Below are positions 8,703 to 11,341 of a DNA stretch of 64,000 nucleotides, in pieces (the stretch's first letter is position 1; each line of letters starts with the position of its first letter). The notes beneath the pieces are model-generated. The model was not told the origin of the DNA. It did not search any database and was given only the letters and a program-made list of their open reading frames with translations. The stretch is from Betaproteobacteria bacterium TMED22. GTDB taxonomy: Bacteria; Pseudomonadota; Gammaproteobacteria; Burkholderiales; Eutrophovitaceae. Both the position numbers and the translations under genes were made by a program. The DNA lies in contig NHCB01000016.1 in the NCBI GenBank assembly GCA_002167745.1, forward strand, positions 1 through 64,000. Reading direction: 5' to 3'.

Positions 8703-9149
8703 TCAAGCCTTACGCTCTGTTAACATCACTTTCGTGCCGAGCAATTTATCTTGAGGCAACTGATTGTCCTTTGTAATTAAGAGTAGCGCTGGCCCAATCA
8801 AGGTGCCATTAAATGCTGCGCATAGGACCAACCTTGCGCTCGCCAATATGACCGTTAGCCGATTTTCCGATTTGTTTGTGATTTTGAGTCCCCAAGATTT
8901 TTGCGCAAGGCTTTGGCCAGAGGTGCACCAGCACAAAACGTAGTAAGCCCAGACACCGAATATTATGGTTGATCCAACGACAGATCTCAGCACAACTATG
9001 TCTGCTGAACCTATGATGGCTGTCGTGACGAATCCGATAGCGAGGGCTAATGCGGCTGTTGTTATGCATTCGTAGCCAAGGGAGCATAATTGCCGCACTT
9101 TACTGGGCCGATATTTTTGATGATTGTGAGTTTTATGAGAATTAAGCAT
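8703..9149 (-). CDS. RDD-family membrane protein
   Basis: 148 aa, TM segments, SLAQKSWGLKI motif typical of RDD domain. Confidence 0.75.
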   Translation of the reverse strand: MLNSHKTHNHQKYRPSKVRQLCSLGYECITTAALALAIGFVTTAIIGSADIVVLRSVVGSTIIFGVWAYYVLCWCTSGQSLAQKSWGLKITNKSENRLTVILASARLVLCAAFNGTLIGPALLLITKDNQLPQDKLLGTKVMLTERKA

Positions 9150-9247
9150 TCCCTGCCATCCATTTAATAGAAAGTTTAATATTTTACGTTTTGTCAGATT
9201 CTGAGTGTAACTGAGACGTCAATAATCGGGTAGACTATAGCTCTTAC

Positions 9248-9420
9248 ATGAGTCAACTTGATTTTACTAATCATTATCTTAATTCCCATGCCAAGCGTGG
9301 TCGATTCTTGTTTTTCCTTTCATATAGTTCACATTTGCGAATATGACAGTCACGGGACGCTAGACTTGATTGTAAAAAAATCGTGTGACATGAAAATCGA
9401 TGAATTGCTCATGGCGCATG
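9248..9420 (+). pseudogene. yqgE: Decayed N-terminal remnant of yqgE (AlgH/YqgE, UPF0301)
   Basis: Frame 1: MSQLDFTNHYL; then +1 shifted frame: LIPMPSVVDSCFSFHIVHICEYDSHGTLDLIVKKSCDMKIDELL, resembling YqgE N-terminus (LIAMPxM.DP.FxRSVVYICEH...GAMGLIVNKP); sits immediately 5' of ruvX as yqgE normally does; C-terminal about two thirds missing. Confidence 0.72.
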
Positions 9421-9447
9421 GTCCAAACGCGGAGTCAGGTGCTTGCA

Positions 9448-9888
9448 TTGAGCAAAACTAAAACGAACAAATTGTTTTTAGCTTTTGATTATGGCGGGGC
9501 ACGGGTCGGGGTGGCTATGGGAGACGCTTCGATTGGTATTGCTCATCCGGTAAGAACCATCGCGTATAAAACAGCAAGGGAGTTGATGGATGAAATTGAG
9601 ATTATCGTTAAAGAATGGAGCCCGTCGGCCCTGGTTGTAGGGATGCCCAAACAAGAAAATGGGAAACCACATATATTAGAAAAGAGAGTCAATCGGTTTT
9701 GTAAAACGCTTGAGTCCAGATTTGAACTTATGGTACATACTATTGACGAGAGCTATACCTCAGTAGAGGCCGATCAACTTCTGGCGAACAACAAAGTGAG
9801 GTGGGCAAGAAGAAAGAAGATGATCGATATGGTTGCCGCACAACTGATTCTTGAAGATTTTTTTGCTAACTCTTTGGAGGAGAACTAA
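9448..9888 (+). CDS. ruvX: Holliday junction resolvase-like protein RuvX/YqgF
   Basis: LAFDYGGARVGVAMGD, LVVGMP, DESYTSVEA motifs; probable TTG start at 9448 (ORF open from 9400). Confidence 0.92.
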   Translation: MSKTKTNKLFLAFDYGGARVGVAMGDASIGIAHPVRTIAYKTARELMDEIEIIVKEWSPSALVVGMPKQENGKPHILEKRVNRFCKTLESRFELMVHTIDESYTSVEADQLLANNKVRWARRKKMIDMVAAQLILEDFFANSLEEN

Positions 9889-9892
9889 GGCT

Positions 9893-10375
9893 GTGTTTGA
9901 TTCAAAATTACTTGCTGAGTCGCTTCTTGGACAAGTGACCGAGGCGCTTGGGACTAATAGTTTATTGATCGGCATTGAAACCGGTGGTGTTGTTGTTTTA
10001 GGTTATCTTATTAAAGAACTTGATATTGATGTGGCTTTCGCGTCTGTGGATGTCAGTTTTCATCGGGACGATTTTGAGATCCGTGGGCTCGCTAAAAGTA
10101 AAAAAAGTACTTCAATTGATGTGGTTCTTGATGGCCGCGACGTAATATTAGTTGACGATGTGATTCAGTCGGGCAGAACGGCTCGAGCTGCGGTGAATGA
10201 AATTTATGATTTTGGCAGACCAAAAACTGTTCAATTAGCTACCTTGGTAGACCGTGGAGGCCGAGAGTTACCGATGGAACCACAGTTTGTTGGAGGATTT
10301 GTTGATGTTCCCGACAGCCAAAAAATTGCAGTTCGATTGGATAAAAACAAGGAGTTAGAGGTCTATGTTGTCTAG
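9893..10375 (+). CDS. pyrR: Bifunctional PyrR regulator / uracil phosphoribosyltransferase
   Basis: PRPP-binding VILVDDVIQSGRTARAA, VQLATLVDRGGRELP; GTG start with ggagg upstream. Confidence 0.93.
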   Translation: MFDSKLLAESLLGQVTEALGTNSLLIGIETGGVVVLGYLIKELDIDVAFASVDVSFHRDDFEIRGLAKSKKSTSIDVVLDGRDVILVDDVIQSGRTARAAVNEIYDFGRPKTVQLATLVDRGGRELPMEPQFVGGFVDVPDSQKIAVRLDKNKELEVYVV

Positions 10376-10393: not shown

Positions 10394-11341
10394 GTGACTG
10401 ATGACATACAGATAAATGATGGAGGGACGCTTCGGCACCTGCTTACCTTAGAAAATTTATCTGGAGAACTAGTTAGTGAAATTCTCGACCGCGCTCAAAA
10501 TTTCTTGTCTATTGGAGACCGGAAAACTAAAAAGCTACCTTTATTACGCGGAAGATCTGTATTCAACCTTTTTTTTGAAAACAGTACGCGCACCCGTACA
10601 ACGTTTGAAATAGCCGCCAAGAGGCTCTCGGCGGATGTGGTCAACTTAAATATCGCTACTTCGTCGCAAAGTAAAGGCGAGAGTTTGCTAGACATGATTG
10701 ATAATTTAGTGGCGATGCAAGCTGATATGTTTGTGGTGCGCCACGCCCAAAGCGATGCGGCTAACATGATTGCTAGACATGTCCCTAAGGGGATACATAT
10801 TATCAATGCTGGAGCCGGTAGCCATTCACACCCGACTCAGGGCTTGCTTGACGCATTTACAATCAGGCATTTTAAAAAAGATTTCACTGGTTTGAAAATT
10901 GTGATAATCGGCGATATTCTCCATTCGCGGGTTGCTCGGTCGCAAATTCACGTGCTTAAAGCGCTCGGTGTGCATGAAATTCGGGTAGTAGGGCCTGAAA
11001 CCTTGGTTCCCGAATCGTTATCTGAAATGGGTGTCAGCGTTTACAACGATGTCGACTCTGCTATCAAGGGCGCAGACGTTGTAACGACACTGCGGCTGCA
11101 AAATGAGCGTATGGAAGTTTCATTGGTGCCAAGCGTGCAACAATTTCACAAAGACTATGGTTTAACAAAAGAACGTTTGGCCCTCGCTCATCCCGAAGCT
11201 ATTGTCCTGCATCCCGGCCCAATCAATCGTGGAGTGGAAATTGCGTCGGAGGTCGCTGATGGGCCTCAGGCTGTCATTTTACGTCAGGTAACGTTTGGGA
11301 TAGCTGTCCGAATGGCCGTAATGTCATTATTGCAAGATTAG
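10394..11341 (+). CDS. pyrB: Aspartate carbamoyltransferase catalytic subunit
   Basis: [40 protein letters not shown]. Confidence 0.97.

Follow-up and report, generated by a model that had tools for sequence, protein, structure and literature searches.

A probable yqgE pseudogene directly upstream of ruvX and the graded decay of yqgE within one genus

The gene yqgE/algH (UPF0301, DUF179, PF02622) is the usual neighbour of yqgF/ruvX. To our knowledge the function of YqgE is unsettled, and nothing about its loss stood among the titles and abstracts listed in literature searches for YqgE and AlgH. Intact YqgE proteins of the genus studied here match solved members of the family such as 2AJ2, 2HAF and 2MUI (AlgH) over almost their whole length. 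In the 64,000-nt stretch of DNA that was analysed (the window, to which all positions refer unless stated otherwise), a remnant of the gene lies directly upstream of ruvX and carries the N-terminal pattern DFTNHxLI.MP..VD..FS..IV.IC..D.HG...LIV.K. It differs from the intact members in that only about 57 of the 188 codons are kept, in two frames, and that the GGP, GFVVH and GW..GQLE stretches, which are conserved in those members, are deleted. The locus has in common with the frameshifted or truncated pseudogenes of gene-losing bacteria a lost frame, a large deletion, a raised omega and intact sister copies; nothing is different in kind, and the congeners show several stages of decay by unshared lesions. 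We assign a probability of roughly 0.92 to the reading that the stretch is a pseudogene of yqgE, made by a one-base insertion and a 3' deletion in a gene that lost its value in this lineage. This is ordinary gene loss, unusual only in that a single genus shows the decay in graded steps.

The old start codon of yqgE, ATG 9248, opens a frame on the forward strand (9248..9346) that encodes MSQLDFTNHYL and then off-frame residues up to TGA 9344–9346 (32 codons). The frame shifted by one base reads ILIPMPSVVDSCFSFHIVHICEYDSHGTLDLIVKKSCDMKIDELLMAHG and is open until TAA 9459–9461, inside ruvX. Re-reading of the sequence thus bore out the letters given in the original prediction. Positions 9248–9420 correspond to the 5' third of yqgE (PF02622/AlgH). 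When the window's own whole genome (1.88 Mb, 17 contigs, 95% complete) was searched with an intact congener YqgE, residues 9–57 of 188 matched 9276..9422 of the forward strand in the shifted frame, with 45% identity and an E value of 9.3e-7. A direct Pfam scan of 9291–9458 returned positions 1–42 of PF02622 (E 7.3e-4, 20 bits); this is under the 27-bit cut-off because only one quarter of the model is left. A PF02622 profile search of the same 95% complete genome found the remnant as its sole place (model positions 1–42, E 0.009) and no second yqgE elsewhere; a weak match on C5 (E 0.14) was dismissed as chance-level. Aligned locally with congener YqgE, the 200-nt piece scored 108 at best, and the maxima were 47 for 2,000 Markov shuffles and 47 for the other 634 pieces of 200 nt from the window. 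Therefore, the homology to YqgE is not due to chance. A functional YqgE would have one open frame of about 185–190 codons and the whole domain; here, the frame is broken at 9275–9281 and nothing of the domain is left beyond position 42 of the 157 in the model. With its sequence match and its orthologous position by ruvX, the remnant belongs to the PF02622 family as a pseudogene. A functional short protein or a programmed frameshift was ruled out, as about two thirds of the YqgE protein is gone.

Alignment with the congeners located both lesions. Compared to all aligned copies, the window yqgE has one extra base, best placed at 9276, with any position in 9275..9281 (forward strand, around codon 10–12) fitting as well. 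The distance from the yqgE start to the ruvX start is 200 nt in the window. G006 has 595 nt, and G001, G003 and G004 each have 611 nt but a ruvX start 18 nt further in; hence about 395 nt net is missing from the window. Relative to the intact congeners, this loss comprises yqgE from about codon 57 to codon 188, its stop codon and part of the spacer, and the junction lies in 9421..9447 (forward strand). The deletion by itself would already destroy yqgE, without the single-base insertion. The frameshift and the large 3' deletion that had been proposed are thus both present, the extra base lying a few bases earlier than the original translation implied.

The gene order at the locus is lptF- and lptG-like genes (which we take to be such from their translations and general knowledge), a divergent RDD-family membrane protein (8703..9149, reverse strand; PF06271, E 1.6e-8; the same in the congeners), the yqgE remnant, ruvX, a pyrR-like phosphoribosyltransferase gene (9893..10375, forward strand; PF00156, E 5e-16) and pyrB. 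The last is an open reading frame at 10394..11341 on the forward strand, 78–91% identical in the congeners, which on established knowledge we take to encode aspartate carbamoyltransferase. The order RDD, yqgE, ruvX, pyrR and pyrB was also read in the congeners. The ruvX (yqgF) gene is intact (9448..9888, forward strand; PF03652, E 9.8e-39). Judged from the alignment with the ATG of G002, G006 and G007, its start is most likely TTG 9448. This TTG sits right after the deletion junction; the closest relatives have ATG. The alternative in-frame ATG 9400 would give RuvX 16 extra residues from the remnant, without counterpart in the relatives, and should not be taken by annotators as the ruvX start. 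Equally spurious is a mechanical 67-aa open reading frame (9258..9461, forward strand), whose final 14 nt, stop codon included, overlap ruvX at its probable start; a gene caller might report this frame, as had been predicted, and it continues the remnant out of frame.

Eight other congeners were compared; the locus is present in seven, and G008 is without the region. Three species (G001, G003 and G004) retain yqgE intact, 188 codons long, immediately before ruvX and at the same site as the remnant. In G006 the gene is nearly full-length and its frame breaks near codon 27; in G007 both ends are kept, with an in-frame TAG near codon 31 and an internal deletion of about 110 codons; in G005 nothing recognisable of yqgE is left at the locus. 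In G002 a contig gap interrupts the locus: C126 stops at the start of the RDD gene and C75 picks up within the C-terminus of yqgE, leaving only the last 27 codons visible, and these are open. Intact and differently broken copies at one site confirm the identification of the remnant as yqgE beside ruvX, and the intact sister copies are those that the original prediction had asked to be looked for. No two of the broken copies share a lesion. Nor was a shared ancestral lesion found: frame breaks and deletions differ in the window's genome (G000), G006 and G007. In a tree of RuvX and PyrB, G000, G002, G006 and G007 group together, weakly (support 58), and G005 stands apart. The loss had been called recent; because the lesions are unshared and three species are intact, it postdates the common ancestor of the genus, and the word holds in this relative sense only, without a date. 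Counting the window's genome, yqgE is lost in four of the seven testable genomes of the genus versus 9 of 198 genomes of other genera; in a sample of 200 genomes of the order it is kept in 190 (95%), even in one of 1.2 Mb.

Selection on yqgE was assessed with a codon model on a fixed tree, a branch model being used in place of pairwise dN/dS because synonymous sites were saturated. Omega was 0.55 in the decaying lineages versus 0.22 in the intact ones (likelihood ratio 8.3, p 0.004). An omega of 1 was rejected for the decaying group as a whole (p 0.02), as expected if yqgE was partly constrained early and then inactivated lineage by lineage. For the window branch alone an omega of 1 fits (p 0.37), a comparison of only about 55 codons with little power. 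In these genomes ruvX shows ordinary purifying selection (pN/pS about 0.2). The relaxed constraint together with the unshared lesions fits separate inactivations of yqgE once it had become dispensable.

Immediately before the former yqgE start lies a block, AATAATCGGGTAGACT, that is conserved in the alignment of six genomes of the genus and contains the −10-like hexamer TAGACT (9231..9236, forward strand). From this conservation, the block is likely the promoter region of the yqgE-ruvX-pyrR-pyrB unit. In a consensus promoter scan neither TAGACT nor the block was among the listed sites, and the promoter and terminator scan of the region gave nothing above chance and no terminator. With a promoter-like block ahead of the remnant and no terminator, ruvX may well use a leader derived from its dead neighbour, as the original prediction had suggested; its likely start codon comes just after the remnant.

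Two other explanations were weighed against a dead yqgE. The truncated frame could have been kept as a coupling open reading frame or regulatory leader, which couples the translation of ruvX to ribosomes that come from upstream, or whose RNA sets the expression of ruvX, pyrR and pyrB. The remnant frame (stop at 9461) does end over the ruvX start at 9448, the promoter-like block is retained, and the start-to-ruvX distance is similar in the three shortened loci (200, 227 and 268 nt, the start in G005 being a guess). Against this, the frame of the old start codon stops 100 nt before ruvX, and the 67-aa frame offers only TTG 9258 or ATG 9288, with no ribosome site evident by eye; moreover, the window branch is compatible with an omega of 1, and both sequence and lesions differ among the shortened loci. 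We therefore regard a retained leader as unlikely; if true, the decay of a gene would have given rise to a regulatory element.

Alternatively, an intact yqgE could exist and the frameshift and the gap could be errors of sequencing or assembly, as might also hold for the single-base break in the otherwise long frame of G006. The extra base of the window, however, is outside any long homopolymer, the missing 395 nt or so fall within a contig of 78.7 kb whose synteny is preserved, and the genome is without any second copy. Degradation is also evident in the substitutions of the remnant, and the independent assembly of G007 shows comparable ruin, all of which makes an artefact highly improbable.

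A dead yqgE would have come about as follows. The gene would have lost its value in this lineage as selection relaxed in part of the genus; several sister species have lost it through different lesions. In the window's lineage, the lesions are the insertion near codon 10–12 and the deletion of about the last 130 codons with part of the spacer. The separate knock-outs and deletions spared the promoter-like block and the ruvX start, because transcription of ruvX, pyrR and pyrB presumably still begins at that block. What is left of yqgE would be untranslated or uselessly translated leader DNA before ruvX; it probably lies within the ruvX transcript and is presumably without function. The genus, in which yqgE ranges from intact through freshly broken and mostly deleted to gone, offers a small natural series on the dispensability of the gene.

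Genes of the ruvX unit are being lost singly in the genus. G005, which has no yqgE, lacks pyrR as well: the 100-nt gap that separates ruvX from pyrB there (L039:1917-2017) gives no match. In G003, the pyrR that immediately follows ruvX is broken (L038:1094-1444, minus strand), its frame being shifted to ...ELLILAGCRRCDWLFWLIKEGANWPSSSN*, while yqgE is intact; only pieces of about 48% identity are left of this pyrR. The divergent RDD gene of G007 (L150, G007:C16:17010-17447) carries an internal TGA and is possibly another decaying gene at the locus.
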